64,000 nt of DNA from Solitalea longa (GTDB lineage Bacteria; Bacteroidota; Bacteroidia; Sphingobacteriales; Sphingobacteriaceae): positions 186,001 to 250,000 of the forward strand of contig NZ_PQVF01000004.1 of assembly GCF_002920915.1 (NCBI RefSeq), read 5' to 3'. Shown here one piece after another: positions 38,866-55,060 of the stretch. Position 1 is the stretch's first letter; every line of letters starts with the position of its first letter. The position numbers and the translations under genes were made by a program. The notes under the pieces were generated by a model. It was given only the letters and a program-made list of their open reading frames with translations. It was not told the DNA's origin and ran no database searches.

Positions 38866-41058
38866 TTATTTTCCTGCGTAAGCAATTGTTTTTTGCTGAC
38901 GGATATCTCTTGATGAACCTCCAACCAATACATCGAAGTTGCCGGCTTCAACCACCCATTTATTTTCTTTGTCGTTGAAGTAATGGAATGCTTCGTCATT
39001 CAGATCAAACACCAACTCTTTAGATTCTCCTGGTTTTAAAAACACTTTTTGGAATGCTTTCAATTCCTTTTCAGGGCGTTTTAAAGTTGATTTTTGTTGT
39101 TTAATGTATAACTGCACCACTTCAGCACCTTCCATTTTACCGGTATTGGTAAGCGTTAATTTTGCAGTGGCTTTATCACCGTTAACAGATACATTCAAAT
39201 TATCATATTTAAAGGTGGTGTATGACAATCCGCGGCCAAACTCAAACTGAGGATCTACCTTATAAGTATCAAAATAGCGGTATCCAACGAAAATATCTTC
39301 TTTATAATGGGCTACATTATTAACACCCGGAAAATCACCGAATTTATGTGCCGGAGAATCCTGAAGTTTTTTAGGGAAGGTCATAGGCAGTTTACCTGAT
39401 GGGTTAACCTGTCCGAAAATAACCTTCGCTAAAGCGTTTCCGCCTTCCATACCTGCATACCAGCCTTCGAGCACACCTTTAGCATCGCCAATCCATTGCG
39501 TTACATCAATTGGCCCGCCTCCAGTTAATACTACCACGGTTTTAGGGTTGGCTTTTAATACCGCTTTGATCAATTCATCTTGACCAAAAGGCATATCCAT
39601 GTTAGGTTTATCTACCCCTTCGGCATCGTAAGCGTTATCATCCCATTTAGCATAATCATAGCCATGGGTCCATCCTACTACCAAAATAGCCACATCTGAT
39701 TTAGCTGCCAAGGCCACTGCTTTATCGATCATTTTCTTATCAGCCTGCTGACCTCTTTCAATTTTATATCCTTGCGAATACTCTACTTTAACCGAATTCC
39801 CAACCAGGTTTTTCAACCCTTGCAAAGGAGTGATCTCGTATTTAGCTTTTACCTGTGAACTTCCGCCTCCCAAAGAGTTTGGACGATCGGCATTTTGGCC
39901 AATAACAGCAATTGATTTGATCGCATCTTTATTTAATGGAAGGATATTGCCTTCGTTCTTCAAAAGGACAATACTTTCTTCAGCCACTTTTAGTGCTGTT
40001 GCCTGGTGTTCTTTTGTATTGAAACTACCCGACTGGCGTTTACCGTCGATCATGTTTGTTTTATACATGATGCGTAAAATGCGGCGAACCTTATCGTCGA
40101 TCAACGAAACTGGAACTTTTCCTTCTTTAACAAACCTCAATAGCGAATCGGCCATGAAGAATTTATTGTAATTAGGGTTTGGCAACATACTTAAATCAGT
40201 ACCCATTTCAAGATCGGTACCGTTTTTAACCGCTTCCATGGTGTTGTGCACTGCTCCCCAATCGCTCATCACCACACCTTTAAAACCCCATTCACCTTTT
40301 AAAATTTTATTGATCAAATATTCATTGTGAGTGGCATATTGTCCTCTGAACTTATTGTATGAACCCATAATGGTGTTCACATCGCCTTCGGTTACAGCAG
40401 CTTTAAAGCCCGGAAGATAAATTTCACGTAAGGCACGTTCGCTCATATAAACATCAACAGTGTTACGATCAACTTCTTCGTTGTTTGCTGCATAATGTTT
40501 TACACAGGCCGAAATACCCTGATCTTGTACACCTTTGATATAACCAACAACCATTTTAGAGATCAGGTAAGGATCTTCGCTCATGTACTCAAAATTACGA
40601 CCGTTCAATGGAGAACGAATGATATTGATACCAGGACCTAAGATCACATCTTTACCACGATAATTAGCCTCGCTTCCGAGAACTGAACCAAAATCATAAC
40701 CTAATTGCGGGTTCCAAGTGGCAGCCAGTGAATTTCCTGTAGGAAGATAAGTTGCTGCATCATCTACGTCCTTGTCCGGTGTCCAGTCGCGGCCATGCTC
40801 AATTCTTACCCCATGCGGGCCGTCGGAGGTAACCAATTCAGGAATACCCAAACGCTCAACACCTGCCGATGTAAATGAAGAATTAGCATGAATCATCCCG
40901 ATCTTTTCTTCAAGCGTCATTTGACTGATAAGCGCACTAATTTTATCTTCTACGCCCCCGGATGGTTTTTGCTGTGCTTGCGAACAAGCCGACAAAGCTG
41001 CCGAGGCAAACATAACCGCAGCACACCAACCCTTAACTGTTTTAAAACTGTATTTCAT
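38866..41058 (-). CDS. Glycoside hydrolase family 3 beta-glucosidase (lipoprotein)
   Basis: Three-domain GH3 of about 730 residues: (beta/alpha)8 barrel, alpha/beta sandwich and C-terminal fibronectin III-like domain. The nucleophile is the Asp of GVVMSDWGA (residue 266 from this start). The substrate-binding KHYAANN and the LGPGINIIRSPLNGRNFEYMSEDP region are typical of beta-glucosidases of the BglX type. A lipobox LSAC precedes a Gln-rich linker, so it may be anchored in the outer or periplasmic membrane. An ATG six codons upstream (41076) is possible; 41058 starts a better signal peptide. Here it would release glucose from the de-branched backbone. Last gene of the locus. Confidence 0.93.
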   Translation of the reverse strand: MKYSFKTVKGWCAAVMFASAALSACSQAQQKPSGGVEDKISALISQMTLEEKIGMIHANSSFTSAGVERLGIPELVTSDGPHGVRIEHGRDWTPDKDVDDAATYLPTGNSLAATWNPQLGYDFGSVLGSEANYRGKDVILGPGINIIRSPLNGRNFEYMSEDPYLISKMVVGYIKGVQDQGISACVKHYAANNEEVDRNTVDVYMSERALREIYLPGFKAAVTEGDVNTIMGSYNKFRGQYATHNEYLINKILKGEWGFKGVVMSDWGAVHNTMEAVKNGTDLEMGTDLSMLPNPNYNKFFMADSLLRFVKEGKVPVSLIDDKVRRILRIMYKTNMIDGKRQSGSFNTKEHQATALKVAEESIVLLKNEGNILPLNKDAIKSIAVIGQNADRPNSLGGGSSQVKAKYEITPLQGLKNLVGNSVKVEYSQGYKIERGQQADKKMIDKAVALAAKSDVAILVVGWTHGYDYAKWDDNAYDAEGVDKPNMDMPFGQDELIKAVLKANPKTVVVLTGGGPIDVTQWIGDAKGVLEGWYAGMEGGNALAKVIFGQVNPSGKLPMTFPKKLQDSPAHKFGDFPGVNNVAHYKEDIFVGYRYFDTYKVDPQFEFGRGLSYTTFKYDNLNVSVNGDKATAKLTLTNTGKMEGAEVVQLYIKQQKSTLKRPEKELKAFQKVFLKPGESKELVFDLNDEAFHYFNDKENKWVVEAGNFDVLVGGSSRDIRQQKTIAYAGK

Positions 41059-41076
41059 ATTATATAACCTGATCAT

Positions 41077-43239
41077 TTATTTATTGCTGATTTCTATTGT
41101 ATTCTCTAATTTGATATCGGCCGATGAAGCGCCTATCATCAATTTAACTTCTCCTTCTTCTACCTTAAACTGATGAAGATTTTCATCCCAATAAGCCAAC
41201 AAAGAAGCATTTAAGGGCATTGTAACCGTTTTTACTTCATTTGGCTTTGTAGCCACCCGCTTAAATGCCTTAAGCTGTTTGAGAGGTCTTTTTATTACTG
41301 AATTTGGATAACTTACATATAGCTGAACCACCTCATCCCCTGCCAGCGCTCCTACGTTTTTCACATCAACACTAACGGTTATTTCTCCGTTTGCGTTCAT
41401 TTTAGTTTTACTTACTTTTAAATTGGAGTAGGTAAAATTGGTGTAGCTCATACCAAAACCAAAAGGATATAACGGTTTTCCATTGAAATACATATAGGTT
41501 CTGCCTTTAGTAATGTCATAATCCATCATTGGCGGCAATTCATCCAAGCTGTTTGGCCATGTTTGCACCAGTCTTCCTGCAGGGTTATAATCCCCAAAAA
41601 GTACATCGGCCAAGGCATTGCCTAGCTCCTGACTGTTTTGTGCCATGTGTAAAATAGCAGGCACGTTTTGTTGGGTCCAGTTAATGGCATATGGAAAACT
41701 CGAGATCAATACCACAATCGTATTCGGATTCGCCTGGTAAACCTCTTTTATTAATTCCTCTTCGGTAAGCGTAAGCGATTTACGGTCTACAGCTTCTTTA
41801 CCTTCGCCAGCATCAGGGCACTGTTCCCAGCCTGCATTACAAGTAGGATGATTGCCCACAATAACTATCGCAGTCTCCGAGTTTTTGGCCGCATTAACAG
41901 CGGCATTACCCGCATTATTTTCAGCATAATTTATTTGGATGTTACTTCCTGCTTTAGCCTTTATTCCCTGTAAGGCAGTTACCACATAAGGTAGTGTTCC
42001 GCTATACCAGTCGAGCAACACCTGATCAGCTTTACTGCCGATTATTGCCAATGATTTTACCTTAGCTTTATTTAGCGGAAGCAAATTCCGATCGTTCTTT
42101 AACAGCACGATCGATTTTTGGGTAACTTCCCTAACGGCATTTTTATGTTTTTCAGAAAGCCACGGTTCCGGTCCATCTTTAATTTTTGAGTATGGATTCA
42201 ATTCCGGAGGATCGAGCAAGCCGAGTTTTATCATCACCCTAAAGTTTCCCCTGATCACTGCTTCAATATCCTTTTCAGTAACCAGTTTTTTCTCTAAGGC
42301 ATGTCGGATGGCCGAATCATAATGATCGAGAAATTGATTGATTCCTGCTTTAACGGCTGCAGCTGCTCCAGCAGCATCATCGGAGTAGTATTTGTGTGAT
42401 TTAATCAATAGGCCTAAAGCTCCACCATCGGTACAAATTATTCCGTTCTGTTTCCATTGATTTACAGCCACGTTCTTCAATACCGGATTCACCATCATTG
42501 GAATTCCGTTCCAGGAGTTATACGATGCCATAAACGCCCTTGAACCTCCTTGCTCTACTCCCATTCTAAAAGGCACGGAATAGTATTCATGAAACAACTT
42601 TTCACTAAAGTCTGATGAGGTCCTATCTCTGCCGTTTTCGTTACTGTTGGCAAGGAAGTGCTTCATTAAAGAAGCTGCCTGCCAGTAACGCTTATCATTT
42701 CCCTGCAAACCTTTGATCATGGCAACTGCCATGGTTCCGTTGAAAAATGGATCTTCACCATAACATTCTTCGGTACGACCCCAGCGCGGGTCGCGAGCTA
42801 AATCAACATTGGGAGAACGTACAACCAAAGCTCCTCTTTCATATTTATCAGTTTGAAAAAGATAGCGAGCTTCATACCCTTCAATATCACCCACTCTTTG
42901 CAAAGCTTCAGTATCCCAGGTTTCGGCTAACCCATAAGCCTGCGGAAACTGAGTAGTGGTAATTGGATTTTCACCACCCCACTTCCCCGGTCCGCCTAGA
43001 GCTACACCATGTAAGCCTTCAATATGGTCACAGCCCTTAATGCCTAACCGAGGAATTGAGGGATTAGTACTTAAACATTTGATCTTTTCATCAAGCGTAA
43101 GCAAAGAAATTAGATTATCTATACGCTTTTCAACATCCAGTTTAGGATCCTGAAATGGGTATCGCTGCTGAGTGCATCCTAATGTGATATTAAAAACAAT
43201 AAACAGCGCACTAAGAATGAAGGCTTTTGCTACTTTCAT
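41077..43239 (-). CDS. Glycoside hydrolase family 3, beta-xylosidase/glucosidase type
   Basis: GH3 enzyme of 720 residues. It differs from the next gene by the plant-xylosidase-like block FPQAYGLAETWDTEALQRVG and RSPNVDLARDPRWGRTEECYGEDP. The nucleophile is Asp271 in GIICTDGGALG. The C-terminal Fn3 domain ends GEVKLMIGASSADIKLE. The signal peptide ends in a lipobox-like TLGC with Cys22. Its ATG overlaps the stop of the preceding GH31 (ATGA), indicating translational coupling. Specificity could be beta-xylosidase or beta-glucosidase; the locus context fits either xylose or glucose removal. Confidence 0.9.
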   Translation of the reverse strand: MKVAKAFILSALFIVFNITLGCTQQRYPFQDPKLDVEKRIDNLISLLTLDEKIKCLSTNPSIPRLGIKGCDHIEGLHGVALGGPGKWGGENPITTTQFPQAYGLAETWDTEALQRVGDIEGYEARYLFQTDKYERGALVVRSPNVDLARDPRWGRTEECYGEDPFFNGTMAVAMIKGLQGNDKRYWQAASLMKHFLANSNENGRDRTSSDFSEKLFHEYYSVPFRMGVEQGGSRAFMASYNSWNGIPMMVNPVLKNVAVNQWKQNGIICTDGGALGLLIKSHKYYSDDAAGAAAAVKAGINQFLDHYDSAIRHALEKKLVTEKDIEAVIRGNFRVMIKLGLLDPPELNPYSKIKDGPEPWLSEKHKNAVREVTQKSIVLLKNDRNLLPLNKAKVKSLAIIGSKADQVLLDWYSGTLPYVVTALQGIKAKAGSNIQINYAENNAGNAAVNAAKNSETAIVIVGNHPTCNAGWEQCPDAGEGKEAVDRKSLTLTEEELIKEVYQANPNTIVVLISSFPYAINWTQQNVPAILHMAQNSQELGNALADVLFGDYNPAGRLVQTWPNSLDELPPMMDYDITKGRTYMYFNGKPLYPFGFGMSYTNFTYSNLKVSKTKMNANGEITVSVDVKNVGALAGDEVVQLYVSYPNSVIKRPLKQLKAFKRVATKPNEVKTVTMPLNASLLAYWDENLHQFKVEEGEVKLMIGASSADIKLENTIEISNK

Positions 43240-45668
43240 TTACCTGCCGACTTATTATATTCTGTATTCGATTGAATTTCCCAACGAATGGCCCCATTTG
43301 ACCAATCTTTATTCAGTTTGAAGAAACCTCCCTGGTTATCAAGTGTTACTTCGTGCAGCACATTATCTTTAGGCAAACAAACAAAACCTTTTGCTTGCTG
43401 TGCTCCGGTTGTATAAGCCACCAGCTTCAATGTCGACCAATCCATTTTCATGGTTGATTGAGCCAATTTTATATGAGGAATTACCGCTCCATCTCTTACT
43501 AAAATCACCGCTTGAACGGCACCAGGAGCAATACTTCTCCAGCCACCTTCATAAACAGTTCCGGATTGATAATCGATCCATTTGCCAGGAGGCAGGTACA
43601 CATTACGCTCGGTTACATTTTCTAAAAGCGGTGCAACCAAAATATCTGATCCGAATAAATATTCATCATCAACCAGCCACGATCCCGGATCGTTAGGATA
43701 TTCTACGAATAAAGCCCTAACCATCGGCAAGCCTTTTTCGGTACACACTTTCGCTTGTGCATAGATATAAGGCATTAGCTGATAGCGCATATTATCGGCT
43801 AATCGGAAGTAATTATTAAAGGATTCGCCGTATTCCCAAGGTTCTTTAGGAGGCATACCATGACTACGGGTGTGTGAAGTTAGGAAGCCAAATGCCGCCC
43901 AGCGACGATATAGATCTTCAGGCGTTTTCTGCACAAATCCACCTATATCATGACTCCAAAACGCAAACCCTGATAACCCAAACGATAAACCACCTCTTAA
44001 CTCAGCAGCCATACCGGTGTTGGTATTTTCAGCATCGCCACCCCAATGTAAAGGGTAACGTTGACTGCCTGCCCAGGCACTTCGTGCCCAGATAATGTTC
44101 TCTCCATTTACCTGTTTAGTAATGTCAGCAACGGCTTTATTGTATCGAAGCGGATAGAGGTTGTGTTCGTAAAAACCTGTTTTACCCGAATAGTATAAAC
44201 CATTATCAGGAGCGGCCTCACCAAAATCAACTTTAATAGCGCCTACTCCCATTTTAAGCAAGCTTGCAATTTTCTCCTGGTACCAGGTAACTGTAGCCGG
44301 GTTAGAAAAATCGAGCGTGGCATCTTCGTATGGAATGTTTCCTTTAGCGTCTTTTACAGCCAATCCTTTTTCAATTATTTCTGGAAATAATTTGTTTTTA
44401 GGCGTGAAATATGGCAACTGCCATAAGGAAATATGGAATCCATCTGCTTTAAGATCTGTCATCATTTTAGCAGGATCTTTAAAACGATCGGGAGCAAATT
44501 TGTAATCGGTGCGCCAGTCGGTGGTAAACCAGCCGGTATCAAAATGGATAACGTCTGCAGGGATTTGATTCTCGCGAAGCTTAGCGGCAACATTTCTTCC
44601 GTCTTGTTCAGAGAAATAGGTAATACGGCTCATCCAAAAACCAAACGACCATAAAGGAGGCATAGCGGCTTTACCGGTTAAATTGGTGTATTCATCAAGA
44701 ATATCTTTAGGAGCTCCTAAAAAGACAAACAGATCAAGTTCATCATCACCGATCATTAATGAATTAGCGCCATTGAAGTATTTACCAAAATCGCAGGTGA
44801 TCGGAGAAGAAGTATGCATGAACATACCATAACCCCTATTACTCATAAAAAAAGGAATAGGCTTATACATGGTTTCATTTTGAACACCGTTGGCATCATC
44901 GGCCCAAAGCACTACTTTTTGGCCTCGTTTATTAAACTGAGTAAACGACTCTCCACAACCAAAGATCTTCTCATCAGGCCCTAGTGAAAATACCGCCGAC
45001 ATGCTTCTTGAATAATCACTGGCCCTCCGTACATAGGAGAAAGGAAGAACCGGGGTATATGAAGAATCGGCATTATCTACGTGATGCATGGTTTTGGTCA
45101 ACAGCTTTCCTTTTGCATCCCTTATTTCCACTCGCCAAGGATGCTCCATAATAGTCACCGAACCATAATCGCTGGCATAGCGATGGCCGCCAGAAATTTT
45201 GCTGTAATTCCATGATCTGGTATCAACAGGAGCCTTACCATTAACCAACATTAACGACTCGGGATTTGGCTTTACCTGAAAGCCCGAACTTGCACGAACA
45301 CGTATTGTTTTAGGCGATACAAATTGAATGGAGAACGGCAATGATGGAGAGGCTTCATATTCAGTTTCAGGGAACTCATTTGCTTTAACAGGTTTCAATA
45401 CACCCAGCATATTATCAAAAGCCTGGCGGGATGAGTACACATAGCGTTTATAAACAACTCTTCCCGTTCCGGTAGCAGCATCAAACTGTGACAAACTATC
45501 AGCTAAATAATAGGTATTAGTAAAGCTTTTGAAGTCATCACTTATATCGACAGGAACATTTAAAAGTTTCATGTTCTGTATCTGCGCTTTTAACACCTGG
45601 GGAAAAAACCATAACATAGGTAGCATAAAGGCTATTACCCCCTTAGTAAAAAATCTATTCATAAACAT
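43236..45668 (-). CDS. Glycoside hydrolase family 31 alpha-xylosidase, YicI-like
   Basis: The GH31 enzyme has 810 residues and an N-terminal signal peptide (LWFFPQVLKAQ). The nucleophile is Asp481 in AIKVDFGEAAP and the acid/base is Asp545 in HWGGDAENT, the motif pair of YicI-type alpha-xylosidases. The N-terminal beta-sandwich includes FGCGESFTQFNKRGQ. In a xyloglucan locus it would remove alpha-1,6-xylose from oligosaccharides. It begins at ATG 45666-45668; a second ATG two codons on is equally possible. It is first in the GH31-GH3-GH3 unit, with a predicted operator-controlled promoter upstream. It complements the PA14-type GH31 at the right edge. Confidence 0.92.
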   Translation of the reverse strand: MFMNRFFTKGVIAFMLPMLWFFPQVLKAQIQNMKLLNVPVDISDDFKSFTNTYYLADSLSQFDAATGTGRVVYKRYVYSSRQAFDNMLGVLKPVKANEFPETEYEASPSLPFSIQFVSPKTIRVRASSGFQVKPNPESLMLVNGKAPVDTRSWNYSKISGGHRYASDYGSVTIMEHPWRVEIRDAKGKLLTKTMHHVDNADSSYTPVLPFSYVRRASDYSRSMSAVFSLGPDEKIFGCGESFTQFNKRGQKVVLWADDANGVQNETMYKPIPFFMSNRGYGMFMHTSSPITCDFGKYFNGANSLMIGDDELDLFVFLGAPKDILDEYTNLTGKAAMPPLWSFGFWMSRITYFSEQDGRNVAAKLRENQIPADVIHFDTGWFTTDWRTDYKFAPDRFKDPAKMMTDLKADGFHISLWQLPYFTPKNKLFPEIIEKGLAVKDAKGNIPYEDATLDFSNPATVTWYQEKIASLLKMGVGAIKVDFGEAAPDNGLYYSGKTGFYEHNLYPLRYNKAVADITKQVNGENIIWARSAWAGSQRYPLHWGGDAENTNTGMAAELRGGLSFGLSGFAFWSHDIGGFVQKTPEDLYRRWAAFGFLTSHTRSHGMPPKEPWEYGESFNNYFRLADNMRYQLMPYIYAQAKVCTEKGLPMVRALFVEYPNDPGSWLVDDEYLFGSDILVAPLLENVTERNVYLPPGKWIDYQSGTVYEGGWRSIAPGAVQAVILVRDGAVIPHIKLAQSTMKMDWSTLKLVAYTTGAQQAKGFVCLPKDNVLHEVTLDNQGGFFKLNKDWSNGAIRWEIQSNTEYNKSAGK

Positions 45669-45714: not shown

Positions 45715-45782
45715 CGAATTTAAGCTTAGATTTAGCTAGAAATGGGACTGTGATGTTAACGATTAGGGTGAAAGATGTTAAC
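45715..45782 (-). promoter_or_regulatory. Promoter unit A: direct-repeat operator plus -7 element for GH31-GH3-GH3
   Basis: ATGTTAAC at 45753-45760 is repeated exactly at 45775-45782 (22-bp period, two helical turns). On the minus strand 30 bp separate the repeat edge from TAAATTCG (45722-45715), which has 7 of 8 matches to TAnnTTTG. Transcription would start near 45708, about 40 nt before the GH31 ATG. Confidence 0.6.
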
Positions 45783-46020: not shown

Positions 46021-46057
46021 AAAAAAAACCTGTTGGCGCATGAGAATCACCAACAGG
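46021..46057 (-). terminator. Terminator hairpin inside the regulatory region
   Basis: CCTGTTGG / CCAACAGG 8-bp perfect stem; on the minus strand it is followed by TTTTTTTT (46028-46021). No coding gene ends here; it is about 150 nt downstream of the predicted start of promoter unit B. Confidence 0.75.
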
Positions 46058-46207
46058 AATACCGATTTAATTCAACCAACCTAAATGCATGCTCTATAAT
46101 AAATCACATGGCTTCTACATGTTCATTAAATACCGATTCAAAGAGATAGATGCTAAGTATTTCTATTTTATTTTTTAGGGTCAATATGATAGAAAGACTG
46201 AATTAAT
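46021..46207 (-). ncRNA. Candidate small RNA (or attenuated leader) of the polysaccharide locus
   Basis: Promoter unit B (46214-46281) and the terminator at 46021-46057 delimit a minus-strand transcript of about 187 nt. ORFs in it are at most seven codons. AATCGGTATT occurs twice inside it. It may be an independent RNA or a 5' leader whose terminator controls read-through to GH31 at 45668. Confidence 0.45.
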
Positions 46208-46213
46208 GATGAC

Positions 46214-46281
46214 CAAAAATAAATAGTTCCAAGGTATCGAAGGGGGCTAATATGTTTACAATTGGTGGTTAATATGTTAAC
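46214..46281 (-). promoter_or_regulatory. Promoter unit B: direct-repeat operator plus perfect -7 element
   Basis: ATGTTTAC (46252-46259) and ATGTTAAC (46274-46281) are spaced 22 bp. On the minus strand 30 bp separate them from TATTTTTG (46221-46214), a perfect TAnnTTTG. Geometry is identical to unit A, and the 30-bp spacers share an AGYCCC-type block. Confidence 0.6.
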
Positions 46282-46286
46282 TTTAA

Positions 46287-46320
46287 AAAACAAAAAAGCC
46301 CACCAAAAGCATTGGCGGGC
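46287..46320 (-). terminator. Terminator of the susCD-to-esterase transcript
   Basis: GCCC.CCAA / TTGG.GGGC stem with a TTTTTTG tail on the minus strand, starting 26 bp after the esterase stop at 46347. Confidence 0.88.
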
Positions 46321-46346: not shown

Positions 46347-48290
46347 TTATTCCTTCCAGTTATCGGTCCGGAAAGGTGAAGCAGGCAAACCTTCTTTATT
46401 GTATAAATTACAATCAGGGTTATCGGCCCAGCCATATCGAACGGCTACCGGAGCAATAACCTGCTCACAACTAACTTCAATTATATCACCTTTGATCACT
46501 GCTTTTGCCCAGTAAAATTTACGATCATTTCCGGCAATAATAAATCCCTTTAAATCGGCAGCGTTTTTAGCTATCAGGCCACTGCCAATTTCTCTGAATT
46601 TAATGCATATGGCATTTCCCTCAATAGTTACCGAATCGGCAACCGGACCTGAATAAACCACCTCCTTTTTGCCATACACTTTATTTTCTGCAGCTAGGGC
46701 AAGCCTTAATCCAACTTCCTGTTTATTTTTTGGGTGAATATCATCTGCTTCCCCAATATCAATAATGGTTGCCATTGCTGTATTTGGTGTGCCTAATGTT
46801 TTGGCCTGCGCATCTCTTAATTCGGCCCATTCGCTTTTAACCAATGGATTGGTAGTGCGTTTCATGTAATTAGCCAGCTGCACATACAAAAAAGGCAAAT
46901 GCCCCTGCTTCCATCTGATGCGCCAATCGTTGATCATTAACGGAAACGTAGTTTCATACTGCGCAGCATTGGCAACGTTGGCTTCACCCTGGTACCAGAT
47001 AAATCCTTTTATTCCGTAAGGAACAATAGGTTTGATCATGGCATTGTATAAATACGAAGGTGTATATTGATAACTTATCGTCTTCGGAATACCGGTTTCG
47101 ATGCCTTTCATATAGGTCCATTCTCCGGCCAAGCTCACTTTGTCAGCACCATCACTTAAATACAAGCTATCTGCAGGATCATTCAGTCCTCCCCCGCCCC
47201 ATAAGGCCGCCATGCGCAACACCACCACATTTTTTCCCTTTTTAACCAATTTAGCGGGAATGGTATACGTATGCGTTTTGGCAGCATTCCAAACATTTTT
47301 GCAAATTTCCTGTCCATTGAAATACAACGAATAGTTCATTTCAGGTTTGTGCAGATGAAGGTTTAAGCTCTTACCTTTGGCTAATTTGGTAAGGTCAACC
47401 GTTTTGCGGAACCATAATATCCCCTCATAAGGACCTTTGCCCCATGAGCGAACAGTAGCCGGCATATTTAACACCGGCCATTTCGAATCGTTAAAGCCGG
47501 GCTCGTTAACTTTCTTTTTTAATCCGTTGTAAGAGTTATAAATAATGTCCCAATAAACTTTTACTACCTCTTCATTCTTTTTAAAGATGCTTTCATCAAT
47601 GTTTTCCTTATTATTCTTGGTTACAATTTTGGCCAATTCCGGAACCGTCATTAACATTTCCTCACTTGTCCAGGCTTCAACCGGAGTTCCTCCCCAGGTC
47701 GACTGGATAATACCAATTGTAACGTTTTCTTTTTGCTGAAGCTGACGACTAAACGAATAAGCTACTGCCGAAAAATCCGCTGCTGTACTCGAATCACATT
47801 GTTTCCATTTCGCTTCAGGAAGGATATCTGATTTTGGGTGCAAAGACACATCATGCGGAACAATTAAAAACCGAATAGTAGGATGAATGGCATTTTTTAT
47901 CTCTGCCACAGCATCTTTCGATTCGCTGATCTTCATTTCCATGTTTGATTGCCCTGAAGCCACCCAAACATCACCCAACATAATATTGCTGAATTTTATG
48001 GTTTGTTTACTATCGCCAACTACCGACACTTGCATAATGTAAGGCCCACCGGCAGGCATTGATGGCAATGAAACATTCCACTCTCCATTTTCATTCGCTA
48101 CAGCTTGGGTGTTGTTCCCGGCAAATTCAACCAATACTTTGGCATTGGGATCAGCCTTGCCCCAAATAGGAATATTTATATTTCGTTGCAACACCATGTT
48201 ATCGCCAAAAACTCTTGGCACCCATAATTGAGCCTTTGCGCTGCAAACAACTAACAGAAAGCAACAGAATAAAAGTATTTTATTTCTCAT
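46347..48290 (-). CDS. SGNH-family sialate O-acetylesterase-like carbohydrate esterase
   Basis: Secreted esterase of 647 residues with a signal peptide (FLLVVCSAKAQ). After an Ig-like N-terminal domain (about 20-100) the SGNH core begins with GDVWVASGQSNMEM, nucleophile Ser115. Block III is GFIWYQGEANVANA and block V is ADDIHPKNKQEVG with the catalytic Asp and His. A jelly-roll carbohydrate-binding insert of about 150 residues sits mid-chain (WFRKTVDLTKLAKGKSLNLH). Family members are named sialate O-acetylesterases but in plant-glycan loci act on acetylated side chains, e.g. acetyl-galactose of xyloglucan. It is 32 bp after GH95. Confidence 0.88.
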   Translation of the reverse strand: MRNKILLFCCFLLVVCSAKAQLWVPRVFGDNMVLQRNINIPIWGKADPNAKVLVEFAGNNTQAVANENGEWNVSLPSMPAGGPYIMQVSVVGDSKQTIKFSNIMLGDVWVASGQSNMEMKISESKDAVAEIKNAIHPTIRFLIVPHDVSLHPKSDILPEAKWKQCDSSTAADFSAVAYSFSRQLQQKENVTIGIIQSTWGGTPVEAWTSEEMLMTVPELAKIVTKNNKENIDESIFKKNEEVVKVYWDIIYNSYNGLKKKVNEPGFNDSKWPVLNMPATVRSWGKGPYEGILWFRKTVDLTKLAKGKSLNLHLHKPEMNYSLYFNGQEICKNVWNAAKTHTYTIPAKLVKKGKNVVVLRMAALWGGGGLNDPADSLYLSDGADKVSLAGEWTYMKGIETGIPKTISYQYTPSYLYNAMIKPIVPYGIKGFIWYQGEANVANAAQYETTFPLMINDWRIRWKQGHLPFLYVQLANYMKRTTNPLVKSEWAELRDAQAKTLGTPNTAMATIIDIGEADDIHPKNKQEVGLRLALAAENKVYGKKEVVYSGPVADSVTIEGNAICIKFREIGSGLIAKNAADLKGFIIAGNDRKFYWAKAVIKGDIIEVSCEQVIAPVAVRYGWADNPDCNLYNKEGLPASPFRTDNWKE

Positions 48291-53308: not shown

Positions 53309-55060
53309 CTATTTAGCCTTTTCCATAATCAGGTAAACGACTGAACGAGCAGGCAACTCAAGTTTAACCGATGAACTGGTTAATTTTGCCGACCGGGCTT
53401 TTAGTGTTGAATAGTTTAACGGTCCACCTCCTGGAGCCGATGGCCCTTGTCCGTTTACTAATACTTTTCGAGAAAAATCGCCTCCTTCTCCGCCTTGTAA
53501 AACATAGTAGTAATAACGTGCTCCCGGCTTAAAGTTTTTCAGCTCAACGGAAGCCATTTCGCTGCTGGTGCCTTTGTTTACCAATACAAGTCCGGCATCG
53601 CCACCATTGCTAAAGCTTGAGGCATACGTTAAAATATTCGAATTTGAACCACTCACTGATGAGCTGAACATGCGGTCGCCAAAGTATTTTTGGAAATAAT
53701 ACATGTAATAGAACGATGGACGAGGACTCCACTTGGTAACTCCGTCACCATCATCGCCCATACTGAATGAGCCCATATCGTTTCCATTATTATAACCATT
53801 GGCAATATCCCAGCGAGAGGCCATACCATAATTGTTTTTCACAAGCTCTCCTAAAACAATAGCTGCATGAAGACCATTAAGGTTAGAGATCATTTGCTTA
53901 TTTCCTTCGGCACCAATGTTCCACTCGGTTAAGGCAATAGGCTTTTGAGGAACGCCGCCTTGTTGCATTGAAGCTTTCACCCTATCCATATTATCTTTAG
54001 AGATCTTTACGGCAGAATTTAAAATTTCATCAGCACCTGTATTTGCACCTAAAGGAGTATAATAATCGTGCACTATGTAATAGTCAGCATAGTCTCCAGC
54101 TGCCGCGAAGTATTCGGCATTCCAGGTTCTGTCAACAACATTCCATGAATTAGTGGCATCATATTGTACCAGCTGTGCACCAATTTTAATATTAGCACCT
54201 ACTTCAGTTGCGGCTTTGCGCATAGAATCAGCAAAAACTTTAAAGTGCTTACCGTAAATGGTACCGTTGATAATTTCAGGTTGTCCATCTTTGTTTTTAG
54301 AAACATCGATCTTAAAACCAGCTTGCCAAGGACCACTACTTTCATTACCTATCTCCCAGAATTTGGTTTTGCCTTTATCGGCACGAACCCAGTCAGCAGC
54401 TAAATGAGCTGCAGCGCGATCGGGATGGTCACTTAAACCATAACGGGCATAAGAATAATTTACTGTTATAATAGCAGTACTACCTACCTGCGCTAACATA
54501 TTGTAAAAGTTATTGACAGATAAGGTCCAACCATCATTATTATTACCATACCAATAACCAGCATCAACTGAATTATTCTCGTAAAGCAATTTATCCGGCG
54601 CATCGGCAGGTTTTGCACCTTGATTACGATTCCAGAAATAAATACTTGAAATATTACCTCCCGGGAAACGGATGATATTTGGCGATAGTTCTCTTAAATG
54701 ACCTAAAAGTGTCGGCTCTGTCACCATTTGCCCTATATAAGGATTGGTATTATTTCCGAAGATATATTTAGACACCTTATTGGTCGACTGGCTGTAATCG
54801 GCAGTAATTGTTACTGATGATTTGGTTAATGGAGCCGTAATAAAATCATATTGAGGAGCCGTAAATTTACGAGGAGCCCAATCGTCCATAAAAAAACCGG
54901 AAGTTGCCGAGGCAGGCACCTCTGTAGGAGGTGTAATATTGTCATCGCCACCACCCGGAGTTGGATTATCGTTATCCGGAGAACCCTTACTGCACGAAGA
55001 AATCGCAGCTGCAACGAAAACTGTAACTAAGCATTGCTGAAGTATAGTTTTATAGCCCAT
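53309..55060 (-). CDS. Surface lipoprotein glycosidase of clan GH-A, family not settled (GH51/GH30-like)
   Basis: The 583-residue protein has a lipobox ISSC (Cys23) followed by a Ser/Asp/Pro/Gly linker, the composition seen in surface-exported Bacteroidota lipoproteins. The catalytic domain has IIRFPGGNISSIYFWN, acid/base Glu240 in FWEIGNESSGPW and nucleophile Glu379 in IALTEWNIGAE, the two-Glu retaining pattern of clan GH-A. The C-terminal beta-sandwich ends VKLELPARSVVYLIME. RFPGGN and GNE..GPW recall GH51 arabinofuranosidases, and GH44 was considered. It could be the missing endo-xyloglucanase of the locus or an arabinofuranosidase. A stable hairpin separates it from the upstream gene. Confidence 0.7.
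   Translation of the reverse strand: MGYKTILQQCLVTVFVAAAISSCSKGSPDNDNPTPGGGDDNITPPTEVPASATSGFFMDDWAPRKFTAPQYDFITAPLTKSSVTITADYSQSTNKVSKYIFGNNTNPYIGQMVTEPTLLGHLRELSPNIIRFPGGNISSIYFWNRNQGAKPADAPDKLLYENNSVDAGYWYGNNNDGWTLSVNNFYNMLAQVGSTAIITVNYSYARYGLSDHPDRAAAHLAADWVRADKGKTKFWEIGNESSGPWQAGFKIDVSKNKDGQPEIINGTIYGKHFKVFADSMRKAATEVGANIKIGAQLVQYDATNSWNVVDRTWNAEYFAAAGDYADYYIVHDYYTPLGANTGADEILNSAVKISKDNMDRVKASMQQGGVPQKPIALTEWNIGAEGNKQMISNLNGLHAAIVLGELVKNNYGMASRWDIANGYNNGNDMGSFSMGDDGDGVTKWSPRPSFYYMYYFQKYFGDRMFSSSVSGSNSNILTYASSFSNGGDAGLVLVNKGTSSEMASVELKNFKPGARYYYYVLQGGEGGDFSRKVLVNGQGPSAPGGGPLNYSTLKARSAKLTSSSVKLELPARSVVYLIMEKAK

Follow-up and report, generated by a model that had tools for sequence, protein, structure and literature searches.

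A candidate HTCS-co-regulated small RNA in a Solitalea longa PUL with predicted pairing to an unlinked susC start

Analysis of the window, a 64-kb stretch of the Solitalea longa genome, pointed to a predicted stand-alone small RNA between the SASA-type esterase gene that ends the main operon of a PUL and the GH31-GH3-GH3 operon that follows it (Table 1). We consider it very likely that this is a conserved sRNA gene co-regulated with the locus. The full model, in which a trans-acting sRNA induced by the hybrid two-component sensor (HTCS) of the PUL would repress the susC gene of a competing PUL, is one for which our confidence is evenly balanced. The wider reading, that an HTCS-driven sRNA may form the RNA arm of glycan prioritisation outside Bacteroides and without an RbpB-type RRM protein, is offered tentatively.

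The PUL lies on the minus strand of the window and is transcribed from high to low coordinates in the order HTCS, GH31, SusC, SusD, two proteins without a Pfam match, GH2, GH95 and SASA esterase, downstream of which are the RNA region and then GH31-GH3-GH3. Genes for an SSF symporter, a xylose-isomerase-like protein and an FGGY kinase were found beyond the HTCS gene, and the SASA esterase was 78% identical to its counterpart in Solitalea agri, the closest named relative. Based on this gene set (two GH31, two GH3, GH2, GH95, an acetylesterase, the xylose isomerase-like protein and the FGGY kinase), the PUL substrate would be xyloglucan of the fucogalacto-xyloglucan type; no endo-xyloglucanase was identified among the scanned proteins. 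One of the PUL proteins without a Pfam match (583 aa; 53309-55060) weakly matched GH51 arabinofuranosidases of the PDB over residues 121-254, which suggests a remote glycoside hydrolase.

Table 1. Features of the RNA region and its surroundings (window coordinates unless a contig or locus is named)
Feature	Position	Strand	Evidence or remark
Predicted stand-alone small RNA, ~187 nt	46021..46207	-	promoter, terminator, conservation
sRNA terminator, CCTGTTGG-13-CCAACAGG-TTTTTTTT	46021..46057	-	perfect 8-bp stem (10 in fold), 8 T
Invariant RNA core, 33 nt, CATGCATTTAGGTTGGTTGAATTAAATCGGTAT	46059..46091	-	identical in S. agri
7-codon ATG frame MHLGWLN, within core	46067..46090	-	longest ATG-start ORF of the RNA
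Predicted seed, 22 nt	46071..46092	-	20 pairs with susC -18..+4, G000:C23:114103-114124
Unit B (sRNA promoter) -7 box, TATTTTTG, TAnnTTTG type	46214..46221	-	six-promoter alignment
Unit B direct repeat 2, GTAAACATATTAGCCCC	46243..46259	-	six-promoter alignment, pattern search
Unit B direct repeat 1, GTTAACATATTAACCACCAATT, putative HTCS half-site	46260..46281	-	six-promoter alignment, pattern search
Esterase terminator	46291..46320	-	9-bp stem (46320-46298), then TTTTTTG
Unit A (GH31 operon promoter) -7 box, TAAATTCG	45715..45722	-	six-promoter alignment
Unit A, both direct repeats	45744..45782	-	alignment, pattern search
SASA-type carbohydrate acetylesterase gene, last of main PUL operon	46347..48290	-	Pfam PF03629, E=1.5e-19
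GH31 gene, heads GH31-GH3-GH3 operon	43236..45668	-	Pfam PF01055
Two GH3 genes, GH31-GH3-GH3 operon	38866..43239	-	Pfam PF00933/PF01915
HTCS gene, directly upstream of main promoter	L114:1869-6032		HisKA, receiver and AraC-type HTH domains

Ends of the RNA, its promoter and the predicted HTCS regulon

Both ends of the RNA are sequence predictions, and the start was placed at about 46207-46209 from the position of the -7 box. The preliminary description of this DNA had proposed a terminator with a perfect 8-bp stem and eight T's at the 3' end (46057-46021) and a preceding esterase transcript that ends at a terminator of its own; both hairpins were confirmed, the second being a 9-bp hairpin 3' of the esterase stop codon at 46347. 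An equivalent esterase hairpin with seven T's was found in S. agri (L034:7008 onward). The sRNA terminator is missed by a simple hairpin scan with a loop limit of 8 nt. The 64-kb window held seven GC-containing hairpins with a perfect 8-bp stem and six or more T's directly after it, and 20 Markov shuffles held none, indicating that the terminator-like hairpins are not due to chance.

The same description had stated that the transcript contains no ORF longer than seven codons, which was correct for ATG starts, where MHLGWLN is the longest, and failed for a TTG-start frame of 26 codons. No Rfam family was obtained for the RNA at gathering score, nothing relevant appeared in a permissive search, and the fold stability of the window RNA was not unusual (z = -1.05). 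Following PMC7366714, a stand-alone intergenic sRNA gene is marked by a start of its own, an intrinsic terminator and the lack of a gene. The RNA possesses both its own predicted promoter and a 3' intrinsic terminator, and of ATG frames its identical core holds only the one of seven codons; at the sequence level a stand-alone RNA unit is well supported.

Six promoters were aligned, those of the main operon, the sRNA and GH31 from each of S. longa and S. agri, and all six shared one register: counted from start to start, repeat 2 follows repeat 1 by 22 nt and the -7 box follows repeat 2 by 38 nt, an offset of exactly 60 nt in total. Unit B, the promoter assigned to the RNA in the preliminary description, was recovered: its direct repeats begin at 46281 and 46259, and its -7 box occupies 46221-46214. 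The -7 boxes read TATTTTTG (sRNA), TAAATTCG (GH31) and TATTTTCA (main operon) in S. longa and TACATTTG, TAAATTCG and TATTTTCA, respectively, in S. agri. GH31 has a promoter of its own (45782-45715) that lies 46-114 nt before its start codon and 3' of the RNA terminator, with a counterpart in S. agri.

A genome-wide search allowing up to three mismatches located the paired repeat at exactly three sites per genome in both species, all within the PUL locus, namely before the main operon (adjoining the HTCS gene), GH31 and the RNA, and in the same order in S. agri; a reversed control pattern gave no matches in the same search. HTCS motifs of Bacteroides have been predicted as direct repeats, for example of 16 bp + 5, 12 bp + 9 or 14 bp + 6 (PMC3878776), and the repeats of our units (17 bp + 5) fit their period. 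A paired repeat common to the promoters of a PUL and situated beside an HTCS gene is the pattern expected of an HTCS regulon, and we infer HTCS binding at the paired repeats of the main, sRNA and GH31 promoters. This promoter architecture supports the earlier suggestion of an sRNA that is turned on together with the locus: its register is exact in both species, and neither genome has it at any other place.

Conservation among Solitalea species and relatives

The corresponding RNA of S. agri is predicted at about 162 nt (L034:7152-7313) and is set in the order esterase, terminator, repeats, RNA, terminator, repeats, GH31. All 33 nt of the core were identical between the two species, in comparison to only 35% (esterase) and 51% (GH31) identity at four-fold sites; as a rough illustration that leaves the choice of block uncorrected, 0.51 to the power 33 is about 2e-10. 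The spacer from the RNA to GH31 was barely alignable and measured 352 nt in S. longa and about 200 nt in S. agri. In the S. agri terminator all 10 pairs were kept, two of them with changes on both sides. Core and terminator are therefore conserved where neutral sites are nearly saturated, and this favours the sRNA reading given in the preliminary description.

A common fold of the two RNAs comprised 36 pairs with none broken, in a comparison of two sequences only. Covariation on two RNA sequences is weak evidence here, as 129 of 500 shuffles did as well. The S. longa RNA contains two copies of a 13-nt near repeat (AATCGGTATT; 46141-46129 and 46070-46058); the upstream copy, which pairs with the core in the consensus fold, is present in a diverged form in S. 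agri. Past the sRNA terminator and before the GH31 promoter sits a diverged repeat, AAACCACAGAATGGTACAGCGTTACACGAAGTAATGAACCTTGTGCAACTCTGTGTTACTCCG (45963-45895, minus strand), with copies of 73–81% identity at two other places in the genome (L002, where it occurs twice, and L003); S. agri, whose spacer is shorter, seems to lack it at this locus.

The distribution of the RNA was narrow. Among 400 family genomes, a 27-nt part of the core (up to three mismatches) was absent from the 398 others, a 291-nt query matched only S. agri among 200 relatives, and around esterase homologues of other Bacteroidota no similar unit was detected by repeat half-sites and gene spacing. A third Solitalea species (G002) has the PUL without the RNA, the esterase being followed by 87 nt and then GH3, and the sRNA and GH31 segment was probably added or lost in a lineage-specific manner. 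The G002 PUL carries one promoter of the paired-repeat type, with two mismatches (L260:8237; G002:C1:1943237), and no second GH31 unit.

An unlinked susC start as candidate target

A search of four Solitalea genomes for the core's 5' half, one mismatch being allowed, returned a handful of matches. Among those in the two RNA-bearing species, the only correct-strand match at a translation start was the same susC gene in both. This gene encodes a protein of 1041 aa that is 94% identical between the species, and it heads a susC-susD-sulfatase operon on another contig; about 58 SusC-like matches are present in the genome. The predicted pairing of sRNA 5'-GCAUGCAUUUAGGUUGGUUGAA with mRNA 5'-UUCAACCAACAUAAAAGUAUGC comprises 20 pairs in 22 positions and covers the AUG, with the outermost pair lost in S. 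agri. When the 22-mer seed was searched with up to three mismatches in the four Solitalea genomes, only the sRNA itself and the susC site were found, in G000 (S. longa) and G001 (S. agri), with no matches in the two genomes that lack the sRNA and none for controls. A close susC orthologue was not found in the two sRNA-less genomes (best 42% and 39%), and RNA and susC orthologue thus share the same two-species distribution.

Ungapped complementarity ranked susC first of 664 start regions, with a score of 39.5 versus 30.5 for the runner-up, this background being drawn from about 0.86 Mb of genome stretches. Run against this same background, 2000 dinucleotide-shuffled cores included 21 that reached the susC complementarity, and the extrapolated genome-wide chance of such a susC match was about 0.06. 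Duplex energy also placed susC first of 664, yet 8 of 60 shuffled cores reached the same energy and this measure is therefore not discriminating; the case for the target was built on ungapped complementarity, uniqueness and conservation, and the energy ranking was set aside. The duplex was computed at about -25 kcal/mol (-21 in S. agri), or about -13 and -10 after opening costs of 6–9 kcal/mol for the RNA, whose seed is partly paired internally, and 3–5 kcal/mol for the mRNA. On these predictions susC is a plausible target of the sRNA, and weight is added by the gene class, which is the one repressed by FopS, by the conserved susC upstream region and by the matching distribution in two species.

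The region upstream of susC (L216:8840-9124; G000:C23) was 82–100% identical between the two species from -280 to -1, compared with 71% at the four-fold sites of susC, and holds a hairpin (GGGGATGC/GCATCCCC) about 100 nt before the susC AUG. It may be a regulatory leader in its own right, and its conservation could have causes other than sRNA pairing.

In the proposed mechanism the HTCS would sense its glycan, bind the paired 22-bp direct repeats and fire three promoters together, those of the main operon, the sRNA and the GH31 operon. The sRNA transcript would stop at its own intrinsic terminator, and its conserved core would pair with the susC mRNA from -18 to +4, AUG included, blocking translation, such that the use of one glycan would lead to lowered uptake of another. 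Transcription of the RNA and its pairing in vivo are predicted from sequence, and repression is the direction suggested by the position over the AUG.

Alternative readings and comparison with known systems

The RNA could be a genuine HTCS-co-regulated sRNA that acts chiefly through other mRNAs or a protein, with the susC match arising by chance, an outcome that we hold to be unlikely though not negligible. The core runs 12 nt past the part that pairs with susC, shuffled cores match the complementarity in about 1% of cases (664 start regions) and the energy in 13%, and the starts at L223:18548 and of an ABC transporter gene (L226:12260) were also high by energy. This is countered by a susC site that is unique in the genome at such quality in both RNA-bearing species, that lies over the AUG and that belongs to the gene class so controlled in Bacteroides. 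It would be very unlikely for the segment to act instead as a 5' leader with an attenuating terminator that gates the GH31-GH3-GH3 operon, as the preliminary description had also proposed. The RNA is indeed upstream of GH31 and co-directional with it, and its terminator could leak; however, a GH31 promoter of the same type stands between terminator and gene in both species, which would render a terminator-gated leader redundant, the distance to GH31 differs between species with unalignable intervening sequence, and the alternative pairing in the fold uses the core and not the terminator stem.

A functionless transcript from a duplicate HTCS promoter that has since lost its gene would agree with G002, where the PUL without the segment indicates that the region has been rearranged, but 33 identical nucleotides and a pairing-preserving terminator were retained despite four-fold-site identities of 35–51%, and we find such a remnant highly improbable. 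We give little credence to the RNA being an mRNA for a very short peptide, whether MHLGWLN or the product of the TTG-started frame: the seven-codon frame does lie inside the invariant core, but conservation spans both sides of it, non-coding sequence included, and the 26-codon frame is by eye not maintained in S. agri. An antisense RNA of the DonS kind was rejected on orientation, as the RNA is intergenic, co-directional and about 12 kb from the susC of its own PUL.

Of the known systems, the predicted Solitalea sRNA is close in kind to FopS and GibS, which are trans-acting intergenic sRNAs with an intrinsic terminator (PMC11697453, PMC7366714). The FopS sRNAs of B. thetaiotaomicron, a family stated to be deposited in Rfam, bind susC-like mRNAs close to their start codons and so repress the translation of glycan transporters (PMC11697453), and pairing with a susC translation start is found by prediction in Solitalea as well. 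The promoters differ, being of the general sigma-ABfr or PM2 type for FopS and GibS and of the type of one PUL's own HTCS for the Solitalea sRNA, and the Solitalea seed falls within the 3' half of its RNA, in contrast to the 5' end in FopS and GibS. FopS was not among the weak permissive Rfam matches on the stretch, in a search of a release that may lack the FopS model, and no RRM protein (PF00076, RbpB-like) was detected in the S. longa genome by a search in which the Bacteroides control was positive. Given the lack of an Rfam match, the different promoter class and the lack of an RRM protein in the genome, the Solitalea sRNA is not filed as a FopS/GibS member.

RNAs of the DonS type are likewise non-coding and PUL-linked, but each is a cis-antisense RNA to its own PUL's susC, with which it is often anti-correlated (PMC7366714, PMC10994844). 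The Solitalea RNA, in contrast, is intergenic and co-directional with its PUL, shares its regulation and has its predicted target at a different locus. The HTCS BT0366 both activates its own PUL and represses distal ones (PMC3404733), which is a likeness in logic, as in both cases HTCS activation of one PUL would be coupled to repression of others. Repression by BT0366 was attributed to direct DNA binding (PMC3404733), whereas the arm proposed here is an HTCS-induced RNA and no such HTCS site was found elsewhere in the Solitalea genome. The way in which Bacteroidota rank glycans, and above all how the activation of one PUL silences another, has been called a large gap (PMC3404733), and the literature compared here describes susC-repressing sRNAs and PUL antisense RNAs and no sRNA under a PUL's own HTCS. 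If the proposed mechanism is true, one sensor would act through three promoters and one RNA covering the susC start codon of another PUL, and trans-sRNA control of PULs would extend to soil Sphingobacteriaceae.
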